Below, piece after piece: positions 32,056 through 58,117 of a stretch of 64,000 nt of DNA. The number at the start of each line of letters is the position of its first letter. The first letter of the stretch is position 1. The DNA is from a virus: the IMG/VR virus record IMGVR_UViG_3300031963_000107, positions 1 to 64,000 of that record, one strand, 5' to 3'. The position numbers and the translations under genes were made by a program. Below the pieces are notes generated by a model. It saw only the letters and a program-made list of their open reading frames with translations. It was not told the DNA's origin and did no database searches.

Positions 32056-32681
32056 TGGCTTGGATTGATTTTTTTACGAAGATATTCGTTATAAATTTAC
32101 CAGAAAGGACTGATAGGTTATTAGATATAGCCGGCGAGTTAGATAAGTGGAATATCCCATATGAGTTAGTTAATGCTATTAAGCATGAAAAAGGAGCAGA
32201 AGGACTACGCCTTACAGTACAGGGCATATTTGAGAAAGCGGTTGAAAATAAATGGGATTCAGTATTGATTTTTGAAGATGACGCAATGTTTGTTGAGTCA
32301 TGTGGCAATCCTAATGAAACAATGGAAAAGGTAGTAAAACAACTACCCGAAGCTTGGCATATATTGCTATTAGGAGCGCAAGTTACTGGTGGTTTTAGGG
32401 CGAGAACATCCCCTAATTTATTAAGAGTAGAGAAAGCTTTTGCTACCCACGCTTGGGCTTTGTCATTGCAAGGGATGAAAGAAATATTAATTCAGGGCTT
32501 ATACGCTCCGATAGACAATTGCATTGTTGAAAAAATACAACCTATGCAACAAACTTACATAACATATCCGTTACTTTGCACACAGAAAGAAGGGATGTCT
32601 GATATAGGTGGTCAGTTTATAGATTGGCGACCATTCATAGAAAATAGATACTATCAAAAACTAGGAGAAATACAACCATGA
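32055..32681 (+). CDS. Glycosyltransferase family 25-like
   Basis: A protein of 208 residues. FVINLPERTDRL at residues 11-22 is the GT25 N-terminal signature. LIFEDDAMF at about 71-79 holds the metal-binding acidic triad E74-D75-D76. THAWALS further on matches the family. GT25 enzymes include LPS beta-galactosyltransferases and the collagen hydroxylysine galactosyltransferase family. Overlaps the terminase stop by one base and the next glycosyltransferase by four, so it is translated with the packaging genes. Donor and acceptor unknown; glycosylation of virion proteins or of host surface glycans are both possible. Confidence 0.8.
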   Translation: MAWIDFFTKIFVINLPERTDRLLDIAGELDKWNIPYELVNAIKHEKGAEGLRLTVQGIFEKAVENKWDSVLIFEDDAMFVESCGNPNETMEKVVKQLPEAWHILLLGAQVTGGFRARTSPNLLRVEKAFATHAWALSLQGMKEILIQGLYAPIDNCIVEKIQPMQQTYITYPLLCTQKEGMSDIGGQFIDWRPFIENRYYQKLGEIQP

Positions 32682-33373
32682 GAACCTTATCAATTTGCAT
32701 ACCTACTTGGAATAGAGTAGAAATGACATTAAATAGTTTTAAAGAAGTTTACAATGATGATAGGGTAGAAGCTATTGTTATCGTAGATGATGCAAGTGAT
32801 GAACATATTTATAACAAATTAAAGGCGGAGTGTGATAAGTTATCTAAAGTTAAATTATATAGAAATTTGACTAATAGGGATTGTTATGCTAATAAGTATG
32901 TATCTATTAGCCTATCCCCTACTGATTATTGTATCATATTAGACTCTGATAATCAAATAGATACATTATATCTTGATAAAATTTTTGAACAAGAATGGGC
33001 AGAAGGTATGATTTTAGCTCCCGATTGGGCAAAGCCAACGTTCAATTATACAGAGTATTCTAATTTAATAATTAGCAAAGACAACTTAAAAGAATATATA
33101 GATAAGCCAATGTTTGAAACCTGCTTAAATTGTATGAATTATTTTGTAAACAAAAATGCTTATTGCGATGTTTGGGATGCTACAATAGACCCCGTAACAA
33201 GTGATAGTTTATTTCAAAATTACAATTGGCTAATGTCAGGTAGGTATATTCATATTGTTCACGGATTAAGGTATGAGCATTTGGTTCACAATCAATCTCA
33301 TTATATAAATAATGTTCAAAGAACAGGTGATTTTAGAGAAATATTAATAGAAAAGATTAGGAAATTAAATTAA
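32678..33373 (+). CDS. Glycosyltransferase family 2-like
   Basis: A protein of 231 residues with the GT-A fold opening SICIPTWNRVEMTLNSF, nucleotide-binding VIVDDASDE, and a DSD-type metal site in CIILDSDNQID. The C-terminal half is shorter than in many GT2 enzymes and lacks membrane segments. It is coupled by a 4-base overlap to the GT25 gene. Donor sugar not predictable from sequence. Confidence 0.8.
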   Translation: MRTLSICIPTWNRVEMTLNSFKEVYNDDRVEAIVIVDDASDEHIYNKLKAECDKLSKVKLYRNLTNRDCYANKYVSISLSPTDYCIILDSDNQIDTLYLDKIFEQEWAEGMILAPDWAKPTFNYTEYSNLIISKDNLKEYIDKPMFETCLNCMNYFVNKNAYCDVWDATIDPVTSDSLFQNYNWLMSGRYIHIVHGLRYEHLVHNQSHYINNVQRTGDFREILIEKIRKLN

Positions 33374-33390
33374 ATTAATTAATTTTACTT

Positions 33391-34128
33391 ATGGTATCTT
33401 TTACAAACGCAGGAAGAATGGGTAATTGGCTTTTTGAAGCAGCTACAGCAATGGCTTACGCTTTGAAGCATGATTTAGATTTTACCGTTCCAAAAGAAAG
33501 TACGAATCCTAAATGGAATCCTATTTATTGTCCACATTTAGTAAACTTTAGCTTCAATCCTGATATTGAAAAAATACAATTATGGGAAGGCAGGCATTCA
33601 TACGAAGAATTGCCATTTGAAGAATCTTGGAGAGATAAAAATATAATCATTGAAGGCTATAGGCAAACAGCAAAATACTTTGATGAATACAGAAGTGAGA
33701 TTTTATATTTATTAAAATTTGATTGGGTAAAGAAAGAAGGATATGTCGCAGTTCATGTAAGAAGAGGGGATTATTTGGAATTAAGACAAAAACATCCAGA
33801 GGTAACGGTAGAATGGTACGAGAAAGCAATGAGCATGTTTCCTGATTGTAAATTTAAGTTTTTTTCAGATGATATAGCTTGGTGTCAAAAAGCGTTTGCC
33901 CATAGAAGTGATTGCGAATACTCTGGAAACACAGATGAGCAAAGTGATTTAATAGAAATGAGTTGGTGTGAGCATCAAATATGTAGTCCATCTACATTTA
34001 GTTGGTGGGGAGCTTATTTAAACAGAAATGAAAATAAAAAAGTAATATTCCCGCAATTTTGGTTTAGTGAAGGATGGTGCGGATTAGACACAAGCGATAT
34101 TGTAAAACCTGAATGGGTAAAATTATGA
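33391..34128 (+). CDS. GT11-type alpha-1,2-fucosyltransferase-like
   Basis: A protein of 245 residues. The N-terminus GRMGNWLFEAATAMAYA is the GT11 substrate-binding start. HVRRGDY at 122-128 is the family hallmark motif that binds GDP-fucose. The C-terminal STFSWWGAYL motif is also diagnostic. The enzyme would transfer fucose, or a related GDP-sugar such as GDP-L-galactose, through an alpha-1,2 linkage. The neighbouring GDP-mannose epimerase supports a GDP-sugar donor. The stop overlaps the next ATG as ATGA. Confidence 0.88.
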   Translation: MVSFTNAGRMGNWLFEAATAMAYALKHDLDFTVPKESTNPKWNPIYCPHLVNFSFNPDIEKIQLWEGRHSYEELPFEESWRDKNIIIEGYRQTAKYFDEYRSEILYLLKFDWVKKEGYVAVHVRRGDYLELRQKHPEVTVEWYEKAMSMFPDCKFKFFSDDIAWCQKAFAHRSDCEYSGNTDEQSDLIEMSWCEHQICSPSTFSWWGAYLNRNENKKVIFPQFWFSEGWCGLDTSDIVKPEWVKL

Positions 34129-34712
34129 GTGAATTAATTATGTTTGATTTTCAGCACTTCTATCAAAGAATTGCGAAAGAGCTTCCTGACGATTGCAAAG
34201 TTTGCGAAGTTGGAGTTGCCAATGGCGATAGTGCTATTTATTTAGCACAAGAAATAAATAGACTTGGTAAAAAGTTTAAGTTGTATATGGTAGATAATAT
34301 GGATTATGGCGGTTATTTACAAATGAAAACTATTTACCAAAACATTATAAAAAGCGGGCTAGGTGAATTTATTGAAGTAGTTCCATTTGAAAGTTTAGAG
34401 GCGGTAAAATTATTTAATGATGGTTATCTTGATTTTTGTTACATTGATTCGTCACATACTTACGAAGAAACTAAAAAAGAAATAAAAGCTTGGTATCCAA
34501 AGGTAAAAGATGAAAACATATTAGCAGGGCATGATTACAATGCTCCTGAAGTAATGAGAGCGGTTGACGAAGTAGTCCCTAAAGTTTTTTTAAGAGATGA
34601 ATTAAATGGGCAGACTTTTAATCCGGAAGATATTTTACATTCAGAAGATACTTTGAATAATTGGGGATTATGGTGGTTTAAAAAACAATGGTATTTAAAA
34701 TTAAATAAATAA
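34125..34712 (+). CDS. Class I SAM-dependent methyltransferase (Methyltransf_24-like)
   Basis: I start at 34125, where ATGA overlaps the previous stop; an in-frame ATG at 34113 would add 4 residues. The product has about 195 residues. Motif I is KVCEVGVANGDSA, followed by an acidic strand LYMVDNMDYGG. Then come LDFCYIDSSHTYEETKKEI and AGHDYN, which match the family of small sugar/glycan methyltransferases often annotated Methyltransf_24. A role in capping or decorating the glycan made by neighbouring transferases is inferred. Confidence 0.75.
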   Translation: MSELIMFDFQHFYQRIAKELPDDCKVCEVGVANGDSAIYLAQEINRLGKKFKLYMVDNMDYGGYLQMKTIYQNIIKSGLGEFIEVVPFESLEAVKLFNDGYLDFCYIDSSHTYEETKKEIKAWYPKVKDENILAGHDYNAPEVMRAVDEVVPKVFLRDELNGQTFNPEDILHSEDTLNNWGLWWFKKQWYLKLNK

Positions 34713-34714
34713 AC

Positions 34715-35722
34715 ATGAAAACAGCTTTAGTTTGCGGAGCAGGAGGATTTATTGGTAGCCATATGGTTAAAAGATTAAAAAAGGATGGCTATTGGGTAAG
34801 AGGGGTAGATTTAAAATACCCAGAACATTCTGAAACAAAAGCAGATGAATTTATTGTTGGTGATTTAAGAGATGAGCAATTAGTTAGCAGGGTTTTGTGG
34901 TCGCCAAAACAACATAATTTACTAGATAAGGATAATGCATTTGATTTAGTAATTCAAATGGCGGCGGATATGGGTGGCGCAGGGTATATTTTTTCAGGAG
35001 ATAATGATGCAAATGTTATGCATAACTCTGCATTGGTAAATTTAAATATTGCATTTTACGCTTCCAAATGTGGCGTTAAAAAATTATTCTTTTCATCAAG
35101 CGCTTGCGCATACCCACAAGAAATACAAGAGTCTACAGACAACAAAGGTTTAAAAGAAAGTGATTGTTTCCCGGCTAACCCAGACAGTCCTTATGGATGG
35201 GAAAAGATATTTAGTGAAATATTATTTGATTCTTTTTACAGAAATTATGGTCTTGATATAAGAATAGCTAGATTTCATAATATATTTGGAGAAGATGGTA
35301 CATGGAGTGGTGGTAAAGAAAAAGCACCAGCAGCTGTTACTAGAAAAGTATGCGAAACTGAAGATGGGGGAGAAATAGAAATATGGGGAGATGGTTTGCA
35401 AACAAGGTCTTTTTTATACATAGATGAATGTATAGAAGGCGTAATGAGATTGCTTGAATCTGATTATAGAAAGCCAGTTAATATTGGTTCTGATGAAATT
35501 ATATCTATTAACGATTTAGCTAAATTAGTAATTAGCATTTCGGGTAAAAATATAAAAATTAAAAATATAGAATCTAACGCAATAGGCGTAAGGGGAAGAA
35601 ATTCAAATAATGAGTTAATACAAGAAGTTTTAGGGTGGCGACCATCAAAGCCTTTAAAAACAGGGTTAGAAAATTTATATGTTTGGATAGATAATCAAGT
35701 TAATAAAAACGCAAGTATATGA
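34715..35722 (+). CDS. GDP-mannose 3,5-epimerase-like enzyme
   Basis: A protein of 335 residues of the extended short-chain dehydrogenase family. The NAD-binding motif is GAGGFIGSH at 8-16. SSACAYP contains C131, YGWEK contains Y160 and K164, and GGKEKAPAA contains K203. The plant GDP-mannose 3,5-epimerase catalytic set (C145, Y174, K178, K217) has the same spacing of 29, 4 and 39 residues. Further family matches are AADMGG, RFHNIFGEDGTW, WGDGLQTRSF and GVRGRNS. It would convert GDP-D-mannose to GDP-L-galactose/GDP-L-gulose. It is placed between the methyltransferases in a glycosylation cluster that includes a GDP-sugar-using GT11. Confidence 0.88.
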   Translation: MKTALVCGAGGFIGSHMVKRLKKDGYWVRGVDLKYPEHSETKADEFIVGDLRDEQLVSRVLWSPKQHNLLDKDNAFDLVIQMAADMGGAGYIFSGDNDANVMHNSALVNLNIAFYASKCGVKKLFFSSSACAYPQEIQESTDNKGLKESDCFPANPDSPYGWEKIFSEILFDSFYRNYGLDIRIARFHNIFGEDGTWSGGKEKAPAAVTRKVCETEDGGEIEIWGDGLQTRSFLYIDECIEGVMRLLESDYRKPVNIGSDEIISINDLAKLVISISGKNIKIKNIESNAIGVRGRNSNNELIQEVLGWRPSKPLKTGLENLYVWIDNQVNKNASI

Positions 35723-36354
35723 TGATTTCATTTGACTATTTAGTCAACAAGCATAAGTTAGATATAAACGGTGTATTGCATTTGGGAGCTTCTACCGGAC
35801 AGGAAAGAGATGTCTATGACAGTTATTGCAAGGGAAAGGTTATATGGGTAGAGGCTATACCCAAAGTTTATTTAGACCTTCAGCAAAATATAAAACTATA
35901 CCCACAACAAACAGCATATAATGCTTGCTTGAGTAATGTGGATGGCGATGAAGTAGTATTTAATGTTTCAAATAATGAAAGCCAAAGTTCATCTATTTTG
36001 GAGTTAGGTGTTCATGCATTGATTCACCCGGAAGTGCATTATGTAGAGCAAATAGCCATGAGAACGGAAAGGGTAGATACATTGCTAAAAAATGTAGATG
36101 TATCAGGTATTAACTTTTTAAACGTTGATTTACAAGGTGCGGAACATTTGGCAATAGAAGGGATGGGCGATTTGATTAAGAATATTGATTACGCATTACT
36201 TGAGGTAAATATGAGGGAAACTTATAAAGGGTGTATGTTGATAGAGGAACTTGATTATTTTATGCTGCAAAGAGGATTTGAAAGAGTTGAAACAGGAGAA
36301 TGGGTAGCCGAAACATGGACAGACGCATTATACATCCGAAAATACAAAATATGA
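35719..36354 (+). CDS. FkbM-family methyltransferase
   Basis: A protein of 211 residues. It has HLGASTGQERDVY as motif I, VIWVEAIPKVYLDLQQN, ACLSNVDGDEVVFNV, SSSILELG and a conserved core INFLNVDLQGAEHLAIEGM. This is the FkbM O-methyltransferase pattern, frequent in polysaccharide and flagellin glycan clusters. ATGATGA at the start overlaps the previous stop; either ATG is possible. It overlaps the next gene by 4 bases. Likely O-methylates a sugar of the phage-specified glycan. Confidence 0.82.
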   Translation: MMISFDYLVNKHKLDINGVLHLGASTGQERDVYDSYCKGKVIWVEAIPKVYLDLQQNIKLYPQQTAYNACLSNVDGDEVVFNVSNNESQSSSILELGVHALIHPEVHYVEQIAMRTERVDTLLKNVDVSGINFLNVDLQGAEHLAIEGMGDLIKNIDYALLEVNMRETYKGCMLIEELDYFMLQRGFERVETGEWVAETWTDALYIRKYKI

Positions 36355-37154
36355 TACACATACCAGAAGAATTTACTCCAACAATAAATACAATATACCC
36401 TTGGGAGAATGATATTATATTTGAAGATTGGGTTTCACACGAGCATATACCTAATACGGAAAGGCATTATCTTCCGATTCAATGGACAGCATATCATGTT
36501 AATAATAATTATGGGAATAATTCTGTAGCGAGAAAACAATTGCAAGATTATGTAGATAAGTTACCTAAAGATTTAAAGTATTGGACTATCTGCCAATATG
36601 ATGACGGAGTAATGACAGATTTTAAAGATTTGGATATTCTAGTCTTTAGTATGAGTAAAAAGACAGGGGTAGAAATACCTTTATTGTGTAAGCCACACTC
36701 ATATAGATGGAATGGGAAGAAGTCTATTCTTGCATCTTTTATTGGCACACATACTCATCCGATTAGGGAAAATGTATTTAATATAAAAAATAAGGATTAT
36801 TACGTTTCGGACAAAGAGCATAATATACAAGATTTTTGCGATATAATTTCTCATTCATTATTTGGATTATGTCCAAGAGGGTATGGCTTAAATAGTTTTA
36901 GAATAGCAGAATGTATGCAATATGAAACTATTCCTGTATATATTTCTGATGAATTCATTGGCTGTTTTGATGCTAATTTTGAAGATTATGGAATTGTGAT
37001 AGAAGAAAAAGATGCAAATAAAATAGAAGAAATTCTAAAAGGTTATACCGATTTGCAGATAGTTGATAAGCAGTTGAAAATCAAAGAGATATACAATGAG
37101 TATTATACATACGAAGGAGCTTTTAACAAGATTAAAAACATTATATGCAAATAG
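36351..37154 (+). CDS. Exostosin/GT47-like glycosyltransferase
   Basis: I place the start at 36351, where ATGA overlaps the FkbM stop, giving 267 residues. The open frame extends to 36300 but the extra part lies inside the upstream gene. The diagnostic C-terminal segment is LFGLCPRGYGLNSFRIAEC followed by ETIPVYISD, the exostosin-domain nucleotide-sugar binding signature. The middle has a short SFIGTHTHPIREN motif typical of such phage/host GT47-like proteins. Donor unknown. Overlaps the next transferase by 10 bases. Confidence 0.75.
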   Translation: MIHIPEEFTPTINTIYPWENDIIFEDWVSHEHIPNTERHYLPIQWTAYHVNNNYGNNSVARKQLQDYVDKLPKDLKYWTICQYDDGVMTDFKDLDILVFSMSKKTGVEIPLLCKPHSYRWNGKKSILASFIGTHTHPIRENVFNIKNKDYYVSDKEHNIQDFCDIISHSLFGLCPRGYGLNSFRIAECMQYETIPVYISDEFIGCFDANFEDYGIVIEEKDANKIEEILKGYTDLQIVDKQLKIKEIYNEYYTYEGAFNKIKNIICK

Positions 37155-37690
37155 CAGTGATTCATAATTTTGATTCGGCTGCTAGATTTGATATGTTAAT
37201 GCAGGAATTTAAGACTCAAGGCATAAGAGATTTTAAATTTTTCCCGGCAGTTCATGATAGTCATTCGGTTAAGAAAGCTATAAATTTAGCGCACAAGCAA
37301 TGCGTTAAGTACGCTTTAGATAATAGTTTACCTGAAATATGCATAATGGAAGACGATGTTCGTTTTACTAACAAGGATAGTTTTTCTTATTTTTTAGAGC
37401 ATAAACCTGAAGATTTTGATGTATATTTAAGTGGTATTTATTTAGGAGAGATTTTGGAGGATAATTCGGTAAAAGAATTTTCCGGATTTCATTGTTATAT
37501 TGTAAATAAAAGATTCTACGAAACGTACTTATCATTGCCTGATGATGCTCACATTGACAGAGCGTTGGCGGGTCTTGGAAAGTATTATGTATCTAGCCCT
37601 TTTGTAGCAATTCAGCACAATGGATTTTCCTATAATACAAAAATGGAAATGAATTATGATGACCTTTTAATAGGAAGAGAATTATATTAA
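37145..37690 (+). CDS. GT25-like glycosyltransferase, short
   Basis: A protein of 181 residues. It carries ICIMEDDVRF, equivalent to the acidic metal site of GT25 enzymes, followed by FSGFHCYIVNKRFYE and HIDRAL. It is shorter than the GT25-like protein at 32055 and lacks its NLPERTDRL start, so it represents a divergent subfamily. Last gene of the eight-gene glycosylation island. After it comes a 72-base AT-rich gap with a promoter candidate for the portal operon. Confidence 0.65.
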   Translation: MQIAVIHNFDSAARFDMLMQEFKTQGIRDFKFFPAVHDSHSVKKAINLAHKQCVKYALDNSLPEICIMEDDVRFTNKDSFSYFLEHKPEDFDVYLSGIYLGEILEDNSVKEFSGFHCYIVNKRFYETYLSLPDDAHIDRALAGLGKYYVSSPFVAIQHNGFSYNTKMEMNYDDLLIGRELY

Positions 37691-45312: not shown

Positions 45313-48300
45313 ATGGCAATACAATCAATAATTACAGGTGATTTTAAAATAAGGGACTTAAACGGAGTTCTTATTGCCAATGATGGTATAGTAACTTCTG
45401 TTGGGAATATAACTTCTGGAACAGCTGGTACTAGTGGTACGTCAGGTTCAGCCGGCACTTCAGGTACAGCAGGCACTAGTGGTTTCGCAGGAACAAGTGC
45501 AAGAATTGTTTTTAATTATGTGGCGACAGCGGGACAAACTACTTTTAATGTGCCTAGTGGTTATGAGAATGGGATGATAGATGTTTTTGTGAATGGGGTA
45601 AAATTATTTCCAAGCGATTATACAGCGACAGATGGCTTCAATGTAATACTTAATAATCCTCTTCAAGTAGGTGATAATGTAGAGATAGATAATTTTGTAT
45701 CTAGCTATGTGGCATCTTCAGGTACTTCTGGCTCAAGTGGTACAGTTGGTACTTCAGGAACAACAGGAACTTCTGGTATTGGTGGTGATAAATATTACAC
45801 CGTATCAGTTTCAATATTTACTTTAGGAACGGGTGGTTACTTAATGGTTTCACCCGGTTTATCATACTCTCCTGCACAATCAATTATAGTAGTACATGAT
45901 AATACTCACTTCCAAGAATGTGAGGTTGTGTCTTATAATGTGGTTACAGGGGAAATAGTTTTTGGCGACCCTAATAGGGTTGTTGGAAGCGGTACTTTTT
46001 CTAGTTGGGTAGTAAACCTAGATGGTGCTTCGGGTGGTGATGGTTCTTCAGGAACATCGGGTTCAAGTGGTTCATCTGCTACTTCAGGTTCATCAGGAAC
46101 ATCGGCTACTTCAGGAACTTCTGCTACTTCAGGAACTTCAGGTTCAAGTGGTAGTAGTGGCTCAAGTGGAAGCAGTGGAACTTCAGGTTCATCAGGAACT
46201 TCTGCAACTAGCGGTAGTTCGGGAACATCAGCAACTAGCGGTTCTTCAGGGACTTCAGGTGTTGATGGTACTTCAGGTATTAATGGTACTAGTGGTTCTT
46301 CAGGAACGAGTGGTAGTAGTGGTACTAGCGGAACAACAGGGACTTCAGGTACGACAGGTACTAGCGGAACAGCAGGTACAACAGGTACTTCAGGTCTTTC
46401 AGGAGATAGATATAGAACAACATCCACTACAACTTTTACTTTAGGTAATGCAGGGAATTTAACAGTAGGAACACTATTGGGATATAGCCCTGCTCAATCA
46501 ATTATAGTGGTTTATGACCCATCAAACTTTCAAGAGTGCGAGGTGGTGTCTTATGATGCTAATACGGGCGTTTTAGTATTCCTTGCTCCTACTAGAACAG
46601 TAGGTAGTGGAACTTATAGCGCTTGGACAGTTAACTTGGATGGGGCGAGTGGTGGTGATGGCTCAAGTGGTACGAGCGGTAGTTCGGGTACTTCAGGTAC
46701 AACAGGAACATCGGGAACTACTGGGACAAGCGGTACAACAGGAACATCGGGAACTACTGGGACAAGCGGTACAAGTGGAACAACAGGTACTAGCGGGGTG
46801 AGTGGTATATCTGCAGGTCAGGTTTATTATTTTAACCAAAGCCAATCTTCAGATGTTTCTCCTTATAAAGTGCTATCACCTTATCCATCAGGAGCGGTTG
46901 AGCAAATAGTGCCTAAAACATTGACCAATAATCAACAAAATGTATTGGTTTCAAGTTTTTTAACGCCAGAACTAGACTTTGCAGTTATCCCTGCAGGTAC
47001 ACAAAGATTCCATTTTCATTTCTTGAAACAAGCAAGTAATGATAACATTCAAACTTATGCTACCATACAATTAGCTGATTCTACAGGTACACCTATCGGG
47101 TCAATATTAAGTACTGGTAATTCTGAAATTGGATGGGTTGATGCGGTTACTCCGGTAGAGGTAACAGCGGATTTAACATTGCCAACGATAGGTATTGACC
47201 CTACTAATAGGATGATAGCCAAAATATATGTAAGTAATAACGATAGTACTACTCATATTGTAAATTGGTACACAGAAGGAACATCTTATTATTCTTTTGT
47301 ATTGACTTCAGTAGGTCAAATAGCGGGTACTTCAGGCTCTTCTGGAACGAGTGGTACAACGGGTACATCGGGTTCATCGGGAACAACAGGTACAAGTGGA
47401 ACGACAGGAACAAGTGGTACAACGGGAACTTCAGGGACTACAGGAACATCAGGTTCTAGTGGCTCTAGTGGCTCTAGTGGTAGCTCTGGCTCAAGTGGTT
47501 CAAGCGGAACAAGTGGTCTTTCAGGTACTTCAGGAGCGCAAGGAACAAGTGGAACAACTCCCGTAGGTGTAATTACAGGTTCAGGAACAACAAACTACCT
47601 ACCTAAATTTACAGGTGCAAGTACAATAGGGAATAGTTTAGTATATGATAATGGTACTAATGTTGGAATAGGAACTGTTAGTCCTACTGCATTATTGCAT
47701 TTAAGCGGAGCAAATACTGCATATAGAGGTCAATTAACAATTCAATCAACTGATTATGCTCAAATAACATTTTATAAAGGAGCAACAACCAATACTGATT
47801 TAAACGCATCTATATTTTCAAACATTACTACTTCCGAATTTGTAATTAGAAATAATGCAAATGCAGCAATGATATTTGATACTAATGCTACCGAAAGAAT
47901 GCGTATTACAAGCACAGGCAATTTAGGATTAGGAGTTACACCGAGTGCGTCGTGGATTGGAGATGTAAAAGCTATTCAAATTGGTAATGCTGGCTCGCAA
48001 ATATCTGCAAGCAATGAAGCATATAGTGGAGGAAATAATTTATGGTTAAGCAATAACTCATATCAAAACAGTTCAGTTCAAGATATTTATATGAGAAGTG
48101 CAAGTGCTGGAATGTATTGGATTAATGGAAATATCCACAAATGGTTCAATGCCCCTTCAGGAACGGCAGGTGCAGCTATTACTTTCACCCAAGCAATGAC
48201 CTTAACGGCAGCAGGTAGATTACTTTTAGGCACTACTACTGAATCAACATACTTGCTAGATGTAAACGGAACGGGTAGGTTTAGTGATAATGTTTTAATA

Positions 48301-49737
48301 AACAATTCAGCATCTTTAAGTAAATTATCAATAAAAGGTTCAGGAAGTACAACAGGTTTAGACCTTTATGTTTTTGGTGCAAACGCAACTTTATCAAATC
48401 AAGATAATGGTAGTTTAGCTTTTGAAACAAATGGTACAACAAGACTTACCATAGCATCCACAGGAGCAGCTACATTCTCTAGTAGTGTAGGTATAGGAGC
48501 AAGTCCTGCTTCATTGTTGTATGCTTATTCATCAACAAGTACTGCTGAATTTAGATTAGAAAGAGGTGGAGTTGGTGATGTTGGAGCAAGATGGAAACGT
48601 AATGGTTCTGATTTAGGATATATTAGTAATGCAGATTGGATTATAGCAGGAACAAGTTCAACTGATTTTGGCGTAACGGCAGTAAATAATTTAATATTTG
48701 GAACTTCCGCTACCGAAAGAATGCGTATTACAAGTGGGGGTAATGTTGGTATAGGTGATGGAACAATTACTCCAACATCAATGTTGCATATATACAAATC
48801 AAGTGCTGTGGCGGATATAGCATTACAATCCGCAGGTGCTTCAGGTAAAAAATATATATTTCAAAGTAATACTGATGGCTCATTAGCATTTTACGATAGT
48901 AATGCTTCAGCAGAAAGAATGCGTATTACAAGTGGAGGTAATGTATTAATTGGAACTACTGATGATGGTGGAAGGCTTGTATCTTATTCTACAACCGCTG
49001 CAACACAAATTAAAGCAGCAGGAACTGCACCTGCAATTACTTTTAGCAACACAGTTCTATCACCAACAATAGGAGGTGTATTAGGAGTATGTACGGCAGC
49101 AAGTCAATTCTTTACAGGTACTGCTTCAAGTGATATGGTTCTTGCAAATCAGTTTACCGCAGGAGCATTAATATTTGGCACTTCTAATACTGAAGCAATG
49201 CGTATTACACCTGCAAGAAATGTTGGTATTGGTGATTCAACTAATGCATCATTTAAACTATCGGTAACAGGAACAGGAGGTGGTGTTATTGCTAACTCAA
49301 GTGGTGCGGGTGATGCAAATTTCTTATCAAATAGTAATTCTATTGGCAAACACTTTTTGGGATTAAGTGGTGCAAGTACTGTATTTTATGTAGCAAATAG
49401 TGGACAAATTTATTCTACTTCTACTTCTATTATTAGCATTTCGGATATTGCATATAAAGAAAATATAAAATCCCTTGAAACAGGATTGAAAGAAATAATG
49501 TCTTTAAAGCCTAGTAGATTTGATTGGAAAGAAGGTAGAGGTAATGGCAAAAAAAATGTTGCAGGATTTATTGCACAAGATTTAGAATTAATTTTACCTG
49601 ATTTAATTGATGAATATGAAAAAGAAATCGGTTCTAATGAGTCTTTAAAAGGAATTAGAATGACTGATTTAATACCAACAATGGTTAAAGCAATTCAAGA
49701 ATTAAAATTAGAAATAGAAACTTTAAAAAATAAATAA
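45313..49737 (+). CDS. Collagen-like tail fibre with S74 intramolecular chaperone
   Basis: A protein of 1474 residues. An N-terminal domain (1-35) is followed by blocks of Gly-X-Y repeats of GTSGSS type that contain no proline. Between blocks are two copies of an 84-residue knob domain (residues 158-241 and 364-447) and another beta domain (about 505-670). From about 790 to 1370 the protein has recurring ERMRITS-GGNVGIG segments typical of phage fibre shafts. The last 100 residues (from DIAYKENIKSLETGLKEI) are the S74 endosialidase-type chaperone, which trimerises the fibre and cleaves itself off. The Ser/Thr density makes the shaft a candidate glycosylation acceptor. Confidence 0.85.
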   Translation: MAIQSIITGDFKIRDLNGVLIANDGIVTSVGNITSGTAGTSGTSGSAGTSGTAGTSGFAGTSARIVFNYVATAGQTTFNVPSGYENGMIDVFVNGVKLFPSDYTATDGFNVILNNPLQVGDNVEIDNFVSSYVASSGTSGSSGTVGTSGTTGTSGIGGDKYYTVSVSIFTLGTGGYLMVSPGLSYSPAQSIIVVHDNTHFQECEVVSYNVVTGEIVFGDPNRVVGSGTFSSWVVNLDGASGGDGSSGTSGSSGSSATSGSSGTSATSGTSATSGTSGSSGSSGSSGSSGTSGSSGTSATSGSSGTSATSGSSGTSGVDGTSGINGTSGSSGTSGSSGTSGTTGTSGTTGTSGTAGTTGTSGLSGDRYRTTSTTTFTLGNAGNLTVGTLLGYSPAQSIIVVYDPSNFQECEVVSYDANTGVLVFLAPTRTVGSGTYSAWTVNLDGASGGDGSSGTSGSSGTSGTTGTSGTTGTSGTTGTSGTTGTSGTSGTTGTSGVSGISAGQVYYFNQSQSSDVSPYKVLSPYPSGAVEQIVPKTLTNNQQNVLVSSFLTPELDFAVIPAGTQRFHFHFLKQASNDNIQTYATIQLADSTGTPIGSILSTGNSEIGWVDAVTPVEVTADLTLPTIGIDPTNRMIAKIYVSNNDSTTHIVNWYTEGTSYYSFVLTSVGQIAGTSGSSGTSGTTGTSGSSGTTGTSGTTGTSGTTGTSGTTGTSGSSGSSGSSGSSGSSGSSGTSGLSGTSGAQGTSGTTPVGVITGSGTTNYLPKFTGASTIGNSLVYDNGTNVGIGTVSPTALLHLSGANTAYRGQLTIQSTDYAQITFYKGATTNTDLNASIFSNITTSEFVIRNNANAAMIFDTNATERMRITSTGNLGLGVTPSASWIGDVKAIQIGNAGSQISASNEAYSGGNNLWLSNNSYQNSSVQDIYMRSASAGMYWINGNIHKWFNAPSGTAGAAITFTQAMTLTAAGRLLLGTTTESTYLLDVNGTGRFSDNVLINNSASLSKLSIKGSGSTTGLDLYVFGANATLSNQDNGSLAFETNGTTRLTIASTGAATFSSSVGIGASPASLLYAYSSTSTAEFRLERGGVGDVGARWKRNGSDLGYISNADWIIAGTSSTDFGVTAVNNLIFGTSATERMRITSGGNVGIGDGTITPTSMLHIYKSSAVADIALQSAGASGKKYIFQSNTDGSLAFYDSNASAERMRITSGGNVLIGTTDDGGRLVSYSTTAATQIKAAGTAPAITFSNTVLSPTIGGVLGVCTAASQFFTGTASSDMVLANQFTAGALIFGTSNTEAMRITPARNVGIGDSTNASFKLSVTGTGGGVIANSSGAGDANFLSNSNSIGKHFLGLSGASTVFYVANSGQIYSTSTSIISISDIAYKENIKSLETGLKEIMSLKPSRFDWKEGRGNGKKNVAGFIAQDLELILPDLIDEYEKEIGSNESLKGIRMTDLIPTMVKAIQELKLEIETLKNK
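46036..46401 (+). repeat. Gly-X-Y (GTSGSS) coding repeat block, fibre 1
   Basis: Nine-base units coding for Gly-Ser/Thr-Ser, using varied synonymous codons, form the longest block of fibre 1. Shorter blocks lie at about 45415-45500, 45715-45783, 46655-46810 and 47326-47562. The repeats create long spurious open frames on other strands. Confidence 0.85.
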
Positions 49738-50736: not shown

Positions 50737-52725
50737 ATGAGTAAAAATACAGTCATCAGTGAAATAGCTAATGTATCAGGACTAGTAAAACAGGTTGGTA
50801 CAAGTGGTTTTTCAACTGCAATCCCAAATGTGGATTATCAACTACCAATTAGTTTAACCACATTCGGGGTGACTGGTCCCGCTACTTTCAGTAGTAATGT
50901 ATTAAACATTCCTATCTATGGCTCTAGTGGAACTACAGGTACTTCAGGTACTAGTGGAATAGGGACATCAGGCACTAGTGGTAATGGGACATCAGGCTCA
51001 TCTGGTTCTTCAGGGTCAAGTGGAAGCTCTGGCTCTTCGGGGTCAAGTGGTTCATCAGGCTCTTCAGGAACTAGTGGTATTAATGGTACTTCAGGGACAA
51101 CTGGCACCTCTGGAACTACTGGGACATCTGGTTCTAGTGGTTCTAGTGGAAGCTCTGGTTCTAGCGGTTCAAGTGGCTCAAGCGGAAGCTCTGGCTCTAG
51201 TGGCTCAAGCGGTTCATCGGGAACTACAGGTACTAGTGGCTCATCAGGGACAACAGGAACATCAGGTACTAGCGGTATCAATGGCGTTAGCGGAGATAGG
51301 TATTTAACCACTTCAGCTACATCTTTTACATTAGGTAACGCAGGAACAATATCAGTTGGTTTAGGATTAGCTTATAGCCCCGCTCAAACTGTTATCATTG
51401 TTTATAATGGAAGCAATTATCAAGAATCACCCGTAACATCATATTCTAGCGTAACAGGTAGTTTATCATTCGGCGCACCTATTTCAACAGTCGGTTCAGG
51501 TACTTATAATGCTTGGACAGTAAACCTTGCAGGTGCAAGTGGTGGAGATGGTAGCTCTGGTTCTAGTGGCACTTCTGGTGTTGCAGGTACAAGCGGTATT
51601 AATGGTACAAGCGGTATCAATGGCACAAGCGGATTGAGTGGTACAAGCGGATTGAGTGGTACAAGCGGTAATAATGGATTAAATGGCACAAGCGGATTAA
51701 CGGGAACATCAGGAATAAATGGTGTTAATGGCACATCAGGAATAAATGGTACTTCGGGTATCAATGGAATTAATGGCACTTCTGGAATTAACGGCATAAA
51801 CGGAACTTCAGGAAACAGCGGTTCAAGTGGTAGCAGCGGTTCAAGTGGCGTTAGTGGCTCATCTGGTTCTTCAGGAATTAATGGTGCAAATGGAACAAGT
51901 GGAATAAACGGAACAAGTGGAATAAACGGAACAGCAGGTATCAGTGGTACTTCAGGTGCAAATGGTACATCAGGAATTAATGGAATAAACGGAACTTCAG
52001 GTATAAATGGAATAAACGGGACTTCGGGTATAAATGGAGGTAATGGTACTTCAGGAACTTCAGGCGCACAAGGAGGTAATGGAACTTCGGGTATCAGTGG
52101 TAGTTCAGGAACTTCAGGGAATAGTGGCTCATCAGGAATAAATGGTACTTCTGGGAATAGCGGTTCATCAGGCACTTCTGGAAACAGTGGTTCAAGTGGT
52201 GTTAGTGGTTCTTCTGGTACTTCTGGCGTTAGTGGTTCATCGGGAGTTAGCGGTTCATCAGGAACTAGCGGAATTAATGGGGTCAATGGCACTTCAGGTA
52301 ATAGTGGTAGTTCAGGTACTTCAGGAGTTAATGGAACAGGATTTAATTCTATTTCACCAACCACCGCAAATGCAGTACTTACAGCCAATGGCACATCTAA
52401 TAGCGCAACAGCTAATACAGGAGTAACAATTAGCGGGTCTAATCTCACTGCTGGAGCATTTTTTGAGTCAAGTTCAGTATTAGGGAAAAATATAATAACT
52501 ACAAATCCAATAACTGCATTAAATATAGATGTAATAAAATATACCAGAAAAAATGATTTAAATAATGATATTAGATATGGCTATTCCGCAGAGCAAATAC
52601 ATTCTTTAATGCCTGAACTTACTGACAAGGATGTAACTGCGGTAAAATATTTAGATGTGCATACAATTTTAATTGCTAATTTGCAAAAGGAAATAAGAGA
52701 GTTAAAAGCAAAAATAAATAATTAA
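50737..52725 (+). CDS. Second collagen-like tail fibre with S74-type C-terminus
   Basis: A protein of 662 residues. The N-terminal 65 residues (TVISEIANVSGLVKQVGTSGF) probably bind the tail. GTSGSS-type Gly-X-Y repeats follow, then one copy of the 84-residue knob domain (186-269) homologous to the two in fibre 1, and a long second repeat block rich in GINGTSG. The C-terminal 60 residues (GYSAEQIHSLMPELT, then LIANLQKEIRELKAKI) resemble the end of an S74 chaperone with a trimeric coiled coil. Together with fibre 1 it would give the virion two receptor-binding fibres that share parts. Overlaps the GIY-YIG gene by one base. Confidence 0.82.
   Translation: MSKNTVISEIANVSGLVKQVGTSGFSTAIPNVDYQLPISLTTFGVTGPATFSSNVLNIPIYGSSGTTGTSGTSGIGTSGTSGNGTSGSSGSSGSSGSSGSSGSSGSSGSSGTSGINGTSGTTGTSGTTGTSGSSGSSGSSGSSGSSGSSGSSGSSGSSGSSGTTGTSGSSGTTGTSGTSGINGVSGDRYLTTSATSFTLGNAGTISVGLGLAYSPAQTVIIVYNGSNYQESPVTSYSSVTGSLSFGAPISTVGSGTYNAWTVNLAGASGGDGSSGSSGTSGVAGTSGINGTSGINGTSGLSGTSGLSGTSGNNGLNGTSGLTGTSGINGVNGTSGINGTSGINGINGTSGINGINGTSGNSGSSGSSGSSGVSGSSGSSGINGANGTSGINGTSGINGTAGISGTSGANGTSGINGINGTSGINGINGTSGINGGNGTSGTSGAQGGNGTSGISGSSGTSGNSGSSGINGTSGNSGSSGTSGNSGSSGVSGSSGTSGVSGSSGVSGSSGTSGINGVNGTSGNSGSSGTSGVNGTGFNSISPTTANAVLTANGTSNSATANTGVTISGSNLTAGAFFESSSVLGKNIITTNPITALNIDVIKYTRKNDLNNDIRYGYSAEQIHSLMPELTDKDVTAVKYLDVHTILIANLQKEIRELKAKINN
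50923..52338 (+). repeat. Gly-X-Y coding repeat blocks, fibre 2
   Basis: Two blocks of nine-base Gly-X-Y units, at about 50923-51290 and 51544-52338, flank the knob domain. The first is GSS-rich, the second GINGTSG-rich. They share stretches of near-identity with fibre 1 and are a likely substrate for recombination between the two genes. Confidence 0.85.
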
Positions 52726-53426
52726 TGCCCCATATTTATAGACATATTAGACTTGACAAAAACGAACCATTTTATGTTGGAATAGGTCTTGATGATATAC
52801 CTAAACGAGCATATGAAACAAAAAAAAGAAGAAGTCAATGGTGGAATAATATAGTTAATAAATATGGATATTCAGTTGATATTCTATTTGAAAATGTAAC
52901 CATAGACTTTGCTAAAGAAAAAGAAAAGGAATTTATATCGTTATACGGAAGGATAGATTTAGGAACAGGTACGCTATGTAATCAAACAAATGGTGGGGAT
53001 GGGATTAATGGTTGGAAGGCTAATGCTGAAAATAAAATCAATATGAGTAAGGCAGCTAAAATAAGGGGTACATCAATGCTTAATAATCCCGAAGTAATAG
53101 CAAAAAGAGCAAATTCTAATAGAGGTAAAAAAAGAACACCAGAACAATGTGAAAGATTAGCTGCTTGGCAAAGAGGAGTCTCTAAATCAAAAGAATTTAT
53201 AGATAACATGAGAAAAAGGATGCTAAGTCCCGAGTCTGTTGAAAAAAGCAGAAATCAGATTAATTGTAAAAAAGTTTTATGTTTAAATAATAATATCATA
53301 TATAGAAGTTGCGCTGAAGCTAGTAGGCAATTAGGCATTTCTCATTCTGGCGTATCTATGATTTGTACAGGTAGACTAGAAAGTATAAAAGGATATAAAT
53401 TTATTCATTATAAAGAATCTAAATAA
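52725..53426 (+). CDS. GIY-YIG homing endonuclease with NUMOD domains
   Basis: A protein of 233 residues. The N-terminus HIYRHIRLDKNEPFYVGIG is a variant GIY-YIG core, followed by a catalytic-type basic helix KRRSQWWNNIV. The middle has repeats of the NUMOD3 kind (MSKAAKIRGTSM, RGKKRTPEQCERLAAWQRG). The C-terminus (CAEASRQLGISHSGVSMIC) is a NUMOD1-type helix-turn-helix. This is the build of a free-standing homing endonuclease. It starts on the stop of fibre 2 and lies before the next tail gene, so it may have moved in with fibre sequences. Confidence 0.82.
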   Translation: MPHIYRHIRLDKNEPFYVGIGLDDIPKRAYETKKRRSQWWNNIVNKYGYSVDILFENVTIDFAKEKEKEFISLYGRIDLGTGTLCNQTNGGDGINGWKANAENKINMSKAAKIRGTSMLNNPEVIAKRANSNRGKKRTPEQCERLAAWQRGVSKSKEFIDNMRKRMLSPESVEKSRNQINCKKVLCLNNNIIYRSCAEASRQLGISHSGVSMICTGRLESIKGYKFIHYKESK

Positions 53427-53428
53427 AC

Positions 53429-55318
53429 ATGGCATATAGCGACTTACAACTTAACCAAACAGTAAGCTTTAATAACTTACAAAGTGGAGTAACGCAAGGT
53501 TACTTTGTCGCTAAAACAAGTATTCCTGTAAGCGCTAAACAAATAACAAAAACAGAGGCAAACACCTATGTTAATATAAATACTTCTCTTGCAAGTTATG
53601 CTGCCAAAGCATCCAATCAATTAGTAACTAGAGATAATTTGCAAGGATTAACTACTGTTTATCCATATACAATATATGCATTAGTTGGTTATGGGGGAGC
53701 CACTACTTGGACTGCATGGAAATCAATTGATGGCGGGAATAATTTTAATCAATTAACAGGGCTTTCTGCATCAGCTAGTTGGACAGAAATAGCAGGTAAT
53801 ATATCTGGAACACACATAGCTGTTGTAGATAATACTATAAACAATCAAGTTTATATTTCAAATAATTCTGGTTCTACATTTAGTGCAGTATCATTAAATA
53901 GTGCTAATTTTTATCCTTATGGAGTAGCAATGTCAAATGATGGGCAGTATATTGCTGTTTCAGGTTTTAGTATTGCTATAGATTCTACAAATACGGGATA
54001 TGCTAAAATAGCAGTTTCTACAAATTATGGTGCATCTTTTACTACTACATATGTGGATGGCACATTGCGCCCTTATGGTTTTAATTATGTCGCTGCCGGT
54101 CATTTATTAACTAATACAGGTAAAGTATCAATATCAGGAGATGGGCAATATGTAACTGCTGTTTTTGGGTATAGTGAATTTGTTGGATTTCCTTATAATT
54201 ACACTCGTCCTGTTAGTTTTAAAGTTGGTTCTAGTAATTCTGGAGCATCATGGTCAGCAAGCGGGACAAATTCATACGCATTTTATCAAGGAGTCGCTTT
54301 ATCAGGTACAGGACAATATCAATTTATAACATCATCTTGGCTTAATAAAAGTTTTGTATCAAGCAGTAATTTTGAAGTAGGTGTAAAGGGATACGTGTCT
54401 AGTAATTATGGTTCAACTTTATCAGAATCATTCTATGATTACCAAGACATACCTTTAAGTAATCAGCCATACCCTATTTTTGATTTCCCATACGCAGGCA
54501 TTTCAGAAAGTGGAAATTCTATGGTTGGCTCAACTCGCGCTCAAAACTATCTTACCCAAAGAAGGTACGCTTCAATAAATTATGGAGCTACATTTGCTAA
54601 AAGAAATGCTGTTTTGCCATTGGGCTTAGCTGTTAGTTTAACTACCGTTTCGGGAATTACAAATAGCTATGTAACAATTTTTGATTTTGATTCTCAATTT
54701 TCTTATAGTACAGATGGCGGAGTTGATGTTTGGTATCAAGTATCTACAGGTTATGCATATTTTAGACATATTTATAGAAAAGCATTAAACACACCTGCTT
54801 TACCTTACTCTTATACCTTATACTACAACACTAGCGTATCATTGCCAGCAATCAATGGATTTAGTACAGCAGTAGATGCTTGTGATTTAGCAACTAATTC
54901 ATTTGTAGTGTATTCCAATTCTAGTACCGTAGGTATTGGGATGAAACTTTATTATGATATTTATGGGATAACTCCAATAGTAGCTAATCCAAGTACAAGT
55001 TCAAATACGTATTATAGAATAAATGGAAATTCTGTACAATTTGGTAGTGATGGTTATACTATTAATTCAGTTGCAGCGTGTGCTTCTTTTATTACATACT
55101 ATGCAGATGAGTATGTGTGCGATGGAATTGATTGTACTTATGTACAAAGTAATGTATTAGTTGCTTTGCCAGATAGCTTTACTCCAGATTATACAAAATA
55201 CTATTTATTACAAGCAGGTGGACCGAGAATATTTTTCCTAGATACAACTACAACAGGAACAGGATTGATATTATCTACAACTAATTACGATTCTTGTTTA
55301 GAAATTTGCGGCGTTTAA
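53429..55318 (+). CDS. Tail protein with Asp-box-like repeats
   Basis: A protein of 629 residues, beta-rich. It contains recurring segments similar to Asp boxes of sialidase/BNR propellers: SIDGGNNF, NNSGSTF, STNYGASF, SSNYGSTL and SINYGATF, separated by strands such as MSNDGQYIAVSG. This suggests a beta-propeller in residues about 90-440, probably binding host glycans. The C-terminal 150 residues are a separate small domain with several cysteines. No catalytic sialidase residues were identified. It converges with and overlaps by 21 bases the minus-strand glycosyltransferase gene. Confidence 0.65.
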   Translation: MAYSDLQLNQTVSFNNLQSGVTQGYFVAKTSIPVSAKQITKTEANTYVNINTSLASYAAKASNQLVTRDNLQGLTTVYPYTIYALVGYGGATTWTAWKSIDGGNNFNQLTGLSASASWTEIAGNISGTHIAVVDNTINNQVYISNNSGSTFSAVSLNSANFYPYGVAMSNDGQYIAVSGFSIAIDSTNTGYAKIAVSTNYGASFTTTYVDGTLRPYGFNYVAAGHLLTNTGKVSISGDGQYVTAVFGYSEFVGFPYNYTRPVSFKVGSSNSGASWSASGTNSYAFYQGVALSGTGQYQFITSSWLNKSFVSSSNFEVGVKGYVSSNYGSTLSESFYDYQDIPLSNQPYPIFDFPYAGISESGNSMVGSTRAQNYLTQRRYASINYGATFAKRNAVLPLGLAVSLTTVSGITNSYVTIFDFDSQFSYSTDGGVDVWYQVSTGYAYFRHIYRKALNTPALPYSYTLYYNTSVSLPAINGFSTAVDACDLATNSFVVYSNSSTVGIGMKLYYDIYGITPIVANPSTSSNTYYRINGNSVQFGSDGYTINSVAACASFITYYADEYVCDGIDCTYVQSNVLVALPDSFTPDYTKYYLLQAGGPRIFFLDTTTTGTGLILSTTNYDSCLEICGV

Positions 55319-58117
55319 TTTATCTATAACCATTTGACCGGTAATTGATTTAGTACACTCAAATTGTCTATCAGTATCTTTGTAATCTTCACACCAATTC
55401 CAATCAGCAGGGTTTAGTCGGTATCTATTGAAGCATCCACTACATTTCCCTTCAGGTGCAGATATTCTAATGCAATCTTCAACTTCAGCAAAAGGCTCTG
55501 AAAATCCACTAATAATTGCAGTAGGAACACCTAATGACCAAGATAACCAAGACAGACCGCTCCCTATGCCTATAAATAGCTCCGATTTCAGCATTTCTTC
55601 CATAACTGACTCAATGCTACCATTGGGATGTAAAACCACGCCATTTGGCGCTATATTGCCCATGTAATCTATTCCTTCTTTAGATAATAGTTTAACCACA
55701 TATCCTTTTGATATTAGATAATCCACCACCTCTTGCCATCCTGTAGGGTTATTCCAATACTTTGCTTGAGCAGTTGAATGAATAGCTATAACCACTTGCT
55801 TCACTTTCTCCACCTCTTTTACCTTCATTTTGGCTCTTATTTCCTTGTACTCCAAGCCTAATATATTGGTAGCAGACTTCTGCATTGGTATTGTGTGTGG
55901 CACTTCGGGTTCCCTATCTTCATTATAAAACCATCCAACCCTATATAAACCATAGATATTTTGAACGACAGCTCCCGGCTTTACAAATTCTAATTCTGGA
56001 TAGTCAAAAATATCATTCCAGAATGTAGATACAATTACATGGCATTTATGTTTGTTTTTAAACTCTTGAGCATACGGAATCCATGCCAAAGTATCTCCTA
56101 ATGATTTACTTTCAAGCGTTATCAAGACTCTTTTACCTTCGTAGTTTAATGTGTTTTCGTGGATTAATTTACCTTCATCCCATATTTTAAGTTTCCAATT
56201 AGTAAACCATTGTCTGTTTAATTTAACCCAATTATTGACATCAATGTGGTTATTATAAACGCATCTGCCATTATCATCGTAGTATTCAATGTAGAATCTT
56301 TTATCTACTACTACCTTATTTTTTTGTTCGTCATTGGTATAATCTATTCCTTCAACATCTACCTTATTATTTTTCTTTAAATCTACCATTAAAAGCTCCT
56401 TAATATTATAATCACTTTGTTTTAGGAAATTATAAAATTTAACTTCCAATATATTAAATGAGGTGCCATTGGTATAATAGTCTTTTTTATCTTTAAATTT
56501 AGTTACAAAAGAATGTATAGCATCTATCCTAGCTGAAAAGAAAGCAGAGCAATACGAATCTTCCTCGTAGCTATTAGCCCCATATTTATAAACCACAAAA
56601 TCTTCCGTATCCAGTGCTTTTAAATTATCATTAATGGTAGCCTTTGAAAGTTCGTAATCATAGTTTACAATGTTTACTTTTTTATACCCTAATTTCTTCG
56701 CATATTCAACACCATTACGCATTAGAGTATATACACAATAGCCATGTTCTTTTTCAAATAATTCATATACCTTTTCTCCCTTTTCATTTGTATGGAAATG
56801 ATAAAAAGCTACGCCATACTTATCAAATTCATCCTTATAAAGCAATGGATTTTCTTTTGTGTAAATAACATAATCACATAACGATTGAGCATCTTCTTCT
56901 ACAGGATAGTTTACAGATAGGATAATATCAGTGTTCAATCTATTAAGGCAATTCTTTAATAGCTGTTTTCTAAAGTCATTATTAGGATGTGCAAGTACTA
57001 TGGACACTGCATCTTCATCCCTTTTATCTAGTAGGTTAACACCTTTAATCTCTAAAAAAGGTTGGTCAACAAAATGTTGAATTATAATAGGCTTTTGCTC
57101 TTTTAGTGGCAGTTCTAATAGCTTTTTATAGGCTTCTTCATGTCTTAATCCAAAGGTCAATGAGGTATTGTCAGTAGGTACTTTGTAATTACATTCTAAA
57201 GTATTTAAATCAGTATCAATAGGATTAATATAATCATCATACATACCCGCATATTGAGGAAGATTACGAGCAACAATAGGAAGCCCATGAGCAATAGCTT
57301 CACGCAATACTAGTGGATTAAGCTCCCAAGTAGAATTAAACATAAAGATATCAGCCGCAGACATGAAGGAGGATATGTCAGTTCTTTCTCCCCATACCTT
57401 AACATTATTAGGTAAATCATTCATCAATGGTCGCCAATAATCCTCAAAATTACCCGCTTGATTACCAATAAAATGAAACATCATATCAGGATACTTACGA
57501 GCAATTTCAATTCCTTCTTTTTGATTCTTGCCCGGAGTCCACAATCCTACATTTATAACATGCTTTTTAAGCATAGATAATCCTAGTTCATTCATTGCTT
57601 TTATGTAATCACCTTGAATAAATATTTTTTCATCAATTGGATAAGGTATAGTTACAAATTTAGCATCTAATCCTGCAAATATATTCTCATGCCAAGGGGT
57701 GCAAAAAGCATACATATCGGGATGAAAACGCTTTTCTTCATGCGGTCTAAAGTTAGAATTATGGCAAGTTTCAACGATATACCATTTTCTATCATTTCGG
57801 TATAAATCAGTGAAAAGCCTATCATTATTCATTGACTCTGGCATCTCATCTAGGTGAACAATATCTATTTCTTCAGTCCTTACAATTTCCATCACCCTCA
57901 TCTTATTCTCACCAAGACTAAAGAAATTATCCCCCACTAGCTTCATTATTTGGTTTCTTTGTACGGGGAAAATCTTCCCATAATCATCATATTCAGCAAC
58001 AAATATCTCAAAGGAGTCAGTATAATCTAATAAGGTTTGGATGCGTTTTAGCACGAATTGAGGCATCCCCCCTGTGCTACAATGTTGCATCAAGTAGAGC
58101 AGTTTAATCTTTTTCAT
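55298..58117 (-). CDS. Multi-domain glycosyltransferase: GT4-like plus TibC-like O-heptosyltransferase
   Basis: A protein of 939 residues. Residues 1-340 are a GT4/GT-B transferase (LLYLMQHCSTGGMPQFV start; donor motif ELNPLVLREAIAHGLPIV with the E-x7-E pattern). Residues about 360-600 form a middle region resembling a GT-A-like polysaccharide enzyme (MRNGVEYAKKLGYKKVNIVNYDYE). Residues about 640-939 match the TibC/BAHT autotransporter heptosyltransferase class: FIGIGSGLSWLSWSLGVP, ISGFSEP, and four cysteines C892, C895, C909 and C921 ending in FECTKSI, where TibC binds iron. Such enzymes O-glycosylate serines of repetitive adhesins. It is the only minus-strand gene facing the fibre genes. 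Confidence 0.75.
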   Translation of the reverse strand: MKKIKLLYLMQHCSTGGMPQFVLKRIQTLLDYTDSFEIFVAEYDDYGKIFPVQRNQIMKLVGDNFFSLGENKMRVMEIVRTEEIDIVHLDEMPESMNNDRLFTDLYRNDRKWYIVETCHNSNFRPHEEKRFHPDMYAFCTPWHENIFAGLDAKFVTIPYPIDEKIFIQGDYIKAMNELGLSMLKKHVINVGLWTPGKNQKEGIEIARKYPDMMFHFIGNQAGNFEDYWRPLMNDLPNNVKVWGERTDISSFMSAADIFMFNSTWELNPLVLREAIAHGLPIVARNLPQYAGMYDDYINPIDTDLNTLECNYKVPTDNTSLTFGLRHEEAYKKLLELPLKEQKPIIIQHFVDQPFLEIKGVNLLDKRDEDAVSIVLAHPNNDFRKQLLKNCLNRLNTDIILSVNYPVEEDAQSLCDYVIYTKENPLLYKDEFDKYGVAFYHFHTNEKGEKVYELFEKEHGYCVYTLMRNGVEYAKKLGYKKVNIVNYDYELSKATINDNLKALDTEDFVVYKYGANSYEEDSYCSAFFSARIDAIHSFVTKFKDKKDYYTNGTSFNILEVKFYNFLKQSDYNIKELLMVDLKKNNKVDVEGIDYTNDEQKNKVVVDKRFYIEYYDDNGRCVYNNHIDVNNWVKLNRQWFTNWKLKIWDEGKLIHENTLNYEGKRVLITLESKSLGDTLAWIPYAQEFKNKHKCHVIVSTFWNDIFDYPELEFVKPGAVVQNIYGLYRVGWFYNEDREPEVPHTIPMQKSATNILGLEYKEIRAKMKVKEVEKVKQVVIAIHSTAQAKYWNNPTGWQEVVDYLISKGYVVKLLSKEGIDYMGNIAPNGVVLHPNGSIESVMEEMLKSELFIGIGSGLSWLSWSLGVPTAIISGFSEPFAEVEDCIRISAPEGKCSGCFNRYRLNPADWNWCEDYKDTDRQFECTKSITGQMVIDKLNAANF

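Follow-up and report, generated by a model that had tools for sequence, protein, structure and literature searches.

What does a phage glycosyltransferase encoded beside the tail genes modify, the surface of the host cell or the fibres of the phage itself? This question is raised by a 939-residue enzyme in the window, the analysed stretch of 64,000 nucleotides, which comprises bases 1-64000 of a virus record of 68,567 bases. The terminase and portal of this phage matched only flavobacterial phages (of Flavobacterium, Cellulophaga, Tenacibaculum and Maribacter) and one Caudoviricetes record. Because these matches come almost wholly from flavobacterial phages, this phage probably infects a member of the Flavobacteriia. 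The enzyme gene, its modules and its convergent neighbour are as follows:

53429..55318, plus strand: last gene on the tail side, 629 aa, in convergent orientation to the enzyme gene, 0 GxSG sites (ORF; site count)
55298..58117, minus strand: enzyme gene, three-module glycosyltransferase, 939 aa (ORF with ATG start; family, PDB and fold searches)
57068..58117, minus strand: N-terminal GT4 module, residues 1-350 (Pfam Glycos_transf_1, E 2e-11; pLDDT ~90; GT-B fold matches)
56312..57022, minus strand: middle GT-A-like module, residues 366-602 (absent from L006-L013; model pLDDT 89.6; Foldseek)
55301..56305, minus strand: C-terminal TibC-type heptosyltransferase module, residues 605-939 (TIGR04414 over cut-off; TibC crystal structure as first fold match)
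55355..55444, minus strand: iron-finger stretch with C892, C895, C909 and C921 (aligned to TibC C339, C342, C358 and C370)

The first-pass annotation had described an N-terminal GT4-like module, a middle GT-A-like region and a C-terminal TibC-like end with iron-binding cysteines, and had named an HMM domain search and structure prediction as the means of checking this. Both bore it out. The NCBIfam model hepto_Aah_TibC (TIGR04414) matched residues 589-935 with 237.7 bits (cut-off 200; E 1.9e-70), and a PDB sequence search returned TibC (4rap) with an E value of 3.9e-51. When the model of the whole protein was searched with Foldseek, the first match was again 4rap (E 5.1e-26, TM 0.80 by target length, 353 columns); the TibC fold, a beta-barrel with a GT-B catalytic domain, was recovered in the C-terminal module, and no unrelated fold was seen. 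As judged from its sequence, this module is a member of the TIGR04414 family, an assignment that claims family membership and not the full BAHT function. A chance pattern of cysteines is contradicted by the HMM and the fold.

The residues of the active site and the iron finger were compared using the TibC numbering of PMC4358343. The catalytic Asp-110 of TibC and the donor-site residues Thr-226, Lys-230 and Trp-305 correspond to D675, T782, K786 and W857, and these four positions together with the four cysteines are kept in 107-110 of 110 relatives, each cysteine in 109. The module also carries the motif FECTKSI. The beta-hairpin thumb contacts Phe-265, Val-266 and Phe-368, hydrophobic residues that build the TibC ring (PMC4358343), correspond to Y818, M819 and F919, all of them hydrophobic. 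Two further positions are changed. Arg-286, which is needed in TibC (PMC4358343), aligns with valine (V838), although the alignment could be shifted at that position, and arginine is kept there in only 9 of the 110 relatives; the donor site is therefore not identical to that of TibC. Pro-300, which sets stereoselectivity only and is serine in AAH (PMC4358343), is replaced by glycine. With both replacements, the donor may differ from that of TibC.

For the N-terminal module, the Pfam Glycos_transf_1 match covered residues 176-293, Foldseek found the GT-B structures PimB', MshA and BshA, and the EX7E pair E265/E273 was invariant in 12 relatives. For the middle module, Pfam and PDB searches, including a sequence profile against the PDB, gave no convincing match. 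The module was left unresolved by a whole-protein model built from 28 sequences and was modelled alone from a dedicated alignment (pLDDT 89.6, pTM 0.88). The first Foldseek match of this model was a putative nucleotide-diphospho-sugar transferase (E 9.8e-7), and the matches included GT-A enzymes and also nucleotidyltransferases; with a TM of ~0.5, the GT-A assignment is a tentative one, of fold class and not of CAZy family. An Asp within an N/E-Y-D motif is invariant. The module is present in the window phage and in its relatives L002-L005 (partial in L005), while in L006-L013 the GT4 module is joined straight to the TibC-type module. On this sequence comparison, the middle module is a clade-specific insertion, and comparable modules were also found in other multi-glycosyltransferase phage proteins.

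In the first-pass annotation the enzyme gene and the last tail gene were placed tail to tail, which is correct, as their 3' ends overlap by 21 bp, and the TibC-like end was said to face the fibre genes. One small correction concerns the adjoining tail gene: its GxSG sites were counted and none were found. The Ser-rich fibres, which are the proposed substrates, are encoded on the other side of that gene:

45313..49737, plus strand: large fibre, 1474 aa, 66 GxSG sites (PHROG tail fiber; site count)
50737..52725, plus strand: collagen-like fibre, 662 aa, 91 GxSG sites (Pfam Collagen, E 1.3e-51; PHROG tail fiber)

Small ORFs with a Y-R-H-I-R start recur between the fibre genes of the window (52725-53426) and of relatives (L002 13506-14195 and 17153-17896; L011 10902-11606), and the window copy has weak similarity to NUMOD/homing endonucleases. 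Upstream of the terminase, a single ORF of 3557 aa (19009-29682) contains a long run of leucine-rich-like repeats.

The link between the enzyme and GTSG repeats was tested in samples that had been chosen without reference to the enzyme. Among the matches listed, a TIGR04414 gene over the cut-off was present in 17 of 39 virus records of at least 30 kb picked by a GTSG DNA pattern, compared with 0 of 28 records picked by GPxG collagen repeats (Fisher 2.4e-5, kinship ignored), a control set that is higher in G+C and in which many of the repeats are short. In records of at least 15 kb picked by a fibre-chaperone motif, the matches listed gave a TIGR04414 gene in 1 of 49, and this sole positive record was one of only two with GTSG repeats, which lay ~300 bases from the gene. 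When the motif set was limited to at least 30 kb, the comparison was 17/39 versus 0/23 (p 8e-5), while GT2 genes, used as a control in the same size-matched sets, gave 10/39 versus 2/23 (p 0.18), both for the matches listed and with kinship ignored. Pure positional clustering of glycosyltransferases was rejected on the basis of this control. The two genes also lie close together: in ten large records, the gene was within 10 kb of GTSG repeats in 7, where 2.3 were expected (P 0.0013, for the positions listed and with kinship ignored). Of the viral clusters at 80% identity, 23/36 had a GTSG gene within 5 kb and 13/36 had none within that distance. The close relatives L006 and L007 had no GTSG gene in the flank examined. 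Behind the fibre genes of relatives (L006 11286-13448, L007 11280-13433, L010 10611-12755) are a gene for a sulfotransferase, an ORF that resembles P-loop kinases and another that resembles heptosyltransferases; the fibre glycans may be sulfated.

The same pairing was found in other phages and in cellular genomes. In Microcystis phage Mel-JY01, a frame of at least 1016 aa that reads as a GTSG fibre comes shortly before a 1226-aa multi-glycosyltransferase with a TibC end. In its record (L015 2-3052, plus strand; PP395634.1), antisense ORFs of the VPEVPLVP type are annotated over the fibre frame. In a 735-kb phage, two multi-glycosyltransferase genes, one of which ends in a TibC module, adjoin an oppositely oriented gene for a GTSG protein. 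In Methylobacter, Methylomicrobium and two Methylococcaceae MAGs, 13-110 bp separate the enzyme gene from GTSG-repeat protein genes, and in a Polaromonas MAG the gap is 8 bp. These methanotroph and Polaromonas repeat proteins have hydrophobic, signal-like N-termini, as judged from sequence:

L097 8824-9705, L098 11028-11336, L099 8846-9817, L100 11124-11825 and L101 8769-9719: bacterial GTSG-repeat proteins beside a standalone TibC-type gene

The C-terminal alignment, scanned against IMG/VR, found relatives encoded in at least 584 stretches, and the same alignment with near-identical patterns returned 17 loci from 84,980 species-representative genomes, counts that reflect what the patterns reach and not all members. 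A tree of 51 rows placed the 36 viral rows and nine cellular ones on one side of a branch (99/96), with E. coli TibC, Lentisphaerota, a selenomonad MAG and one further bacterium on the other side; the methanotroph group, together with the Polaromonas MAG, was nested among the viral rows. TibC-type genes were also seen in two contigs binned as archaea (L104 and L105; Pacearchaeota and Nitrosotalea), which are maybe misbinned phage contigs, and L105 also has a GTSG-repeat ORF.

ADP-heptose is made by HldE, and HldE-like genes were found directly behind the TibC gene in relatives. In L019, L027 and L031, the TibC gene is followed by overlapping or abutting ORFs of 127-129 aa and 248-251 aa. The smaller ORF had its best family match, with E values of 5e-32 to 2e-26, in the adenylyltransferase domain of HldE, and the larger, with 1e-31 to 2e-25, in the HldE kinase domain; all of these matches were below the curated cut-offs. 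Further records of this group have both HldE-like matches side by side, and the 735-kb phage encodes a near full-length homologue of the HldE kinase elsewhere in its genome (306 bits; cut-off 345). The nucleotidyltransferase of a 998-aa ORF in L019 was dropped as the HldE part; it is NMN-adenylyltransferase-like, and the small 127-129-aa ORF was preferred. GmhA was not found in any relative tested, so a complete phage pathway to ADP-heptose is not claimed. The split-HldE-like genes of the relatives lend support to heptose as the probable donor sugar. HldE-like donor genes were also sought in the window phage and none were found; without donor genes of its own, this phage would depend on ADP-heptose of the host. 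The window does have a second set of sugar genes:

32055..37690, plus strand: second glycan cassette of eight genes, GT25, GT2, GT11, methyltransferase (Methyltransf_24), epimerase, FkbM, GT47 and GT25 (Pfam)

This cassette may contribute to the same glycan as the 939-residue enzyme. It lies between the terminase and portal genes, which adjoin in a Flavobacterium phage (H10, H20).

Taken together, we consider it fairly likely that the enzyme is a phage protein O-glycosyltransferase that puts heptose on the phage's own Gly-X-Ser fibres, and that the fused modules extend the sugar. In the scheme that we infer for the substrate, the sugar, the order of transfer and the oligomeric state, the collagen-like tail fibres would be decorated inside the infected cell, ahead of assembly. 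Working probably as an iron-finger-dependent oligomer, the C-terminal TibC-type module would move heptose from ADP-heptose, probably derived from the host, to the serines of GTSG and GSSG sites. Further sugars would then be added to the heptose by the GT4 module and by the GT-A-like module inserted in this clade, an extension suggested by their fusion to the TibC-type module. The specific association of TibC-type genes with GTSG-repeat genes, in phages as well as methanotrophs, supports the phage-fibre substrate that the first-pass annotation had proposed. That annotation had named Ser/Thr-rich fibres as the acceptor, and of this the serine part stands and the threonine part does not: because the characterised TibC glycosylates a number of serines in its substrate but leaves threonines unmodified (PMC4358343), 'Ser/Thr' should read 'Ser'.

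Other explanations of the locus were weighed against this one. The enzyme could modify the LPS or another surface glycan of the host, as in superinfection exclusion or serotype change, in which case its position near the fibres would reflect a clustering of host-interaction genes. A published account of pelagimyophages reads the glycosyltransferases and rfaE of their fibre region in this manner (PMC7029224), Pfam Glyco_transf_9 relates TibC to LPS heptosyltransferases, and variable glycosyltransferases, methyltransferases and sulfotransferases lie near the fibres of relatives. However, the fold, iron finger and residues specific to TibC speak for a protein as the acceptor, the association among the matches listed holds for GTSG repeats but neither for GPxG collagen nor for fibres generally, nor is it shared by the common GT2 genes, and the methanotroph relatives pair with GTSG-repeat proteins that are not of phage origin. 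Modification of the host surface is thus unlikely. Glycosylation of DNA was rejected because the closest family modifies protein.

It is less probable again, at something near the level of an outside chance, that a phage fibre or virion protein is the substrate and the sugar is not heptose, with the changes at Arg-286 and Pro-300 marking a changed donor. The valine and glycine at these positions, the rarity of the arginine among the relatives, and a window phage that lacks HldE-like genes but encodes an epimerase and further sugar-related functions at 32055-37690 are all consistent with a different sugar, but the ADP-heptose site retains its Asp, Thr, Lys and Trp, and in relatives the TibC gene is directly followed by genes for an HldE-like kinase and an HldE-like adenylyltransferase. 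Gene exchange is free in the tail regions of environmental phages and the middle module comes and goes among close relatives, as might be expected if the gene were a passenger, a mobile glycosyltransferase cassette with no role in the fibres. Such a passenger is very improbable, since the catalytic and iron residues are strongly kept and the link between TibC-type genes and GTSG repeats recurs in unrelated genomes of ~30 to 735 kb as well as in cellular genomes.

Heptosylation of the fibres by the phage is the most economical reading. Because TibC-type genes sit beside Ser-rich collagen-like fibre genes across many unrelated phages, phages with this pair probably use heptose-based sugars to cover fibres of their own. 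Glycosylated collagen-like proteins (PMC8968730) offer an analogy from which one may speculate that the sugar coat helps the proline-poor Gly-X-Ser repeats to form or keep a stable fibre, or that it shields the fibre. More tentatively, phages could be a major reservoir of TibC-type enzymes that hyper-heptosylate Gly-X-Ser fibres, some with split HldE-like genes, and the coat could be needed for the proline-poor repeats to make stable fibres, which would amount to glycosylated collagen in a phage version; we regard this stronger version as possible but doubtful.

TibC-type heptosyltransferases are helpers of bacterial adhesins. If our reading is true, phages too carry them widely (at least 584 stretches), and the GTSG fibres that are common among environmental phages would be glycoproteins, which would change the view of how these fibres bind hosts and resist attack. 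Some phage glycosyltransferases that are now read as LPS-modifying would have to be reassigned.

Among known systems, TibC/AAH (BAHT, TIGR04414; PDB 4rap and 4rb4; eLife 2014, PMC4358343) is alike in HMM, fold and the catalytic Asp, Thr, Lys and Trp, and has the four iron cysteines and the hydrophobic thumb tip in common with the window module. In contrast to TibC/AAH, the window enzyme is a phage gene product in which the module is fused behind GT4 and GT-A-like modules and Arg-286 and Pro-300 are replaced; no neighbouring autotransporter was found by it, and phage tail genes and Gly-X-Ser fibres are there instead. The TibC paper makes no mention of phages (PMC4358343), and the open-access full texts found to name the TIGR04414 family deal with bacterial proteins, the phage form being apparently unreported. 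Mycobacteriophages likewise glycosylate their own virion proteins (Freeman et al. 2023, Cell Host Microbe, as cited in PMC12619734), but the glycans are at the C-termini of capsid and tail tube subunits, and the available part of PMC12619734 mentions neither a TibC-type module nor a GTSG fibre. Glycosylated bacterial collagen-like proteins of the BclA type likewise carry sugar on collagen-like repeats, where it is proposed to serve hydration and stability; these are bacterial spore proteins, and no link to TibC-type enzymes is described in the available part of PMC8968730. The host recognition clusters of pelagimyophages likewise combine glycosyltransferases and rfaE with tail fibres, but they are read as modifying the host O-chain, and TibC-type modules and GTSG fibres are not discussed in the part of PMC7029224 available. 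The enzyme family is known, and what appears to be new is its phage form, the fusion architecture and the apparent collagen-like substrate.
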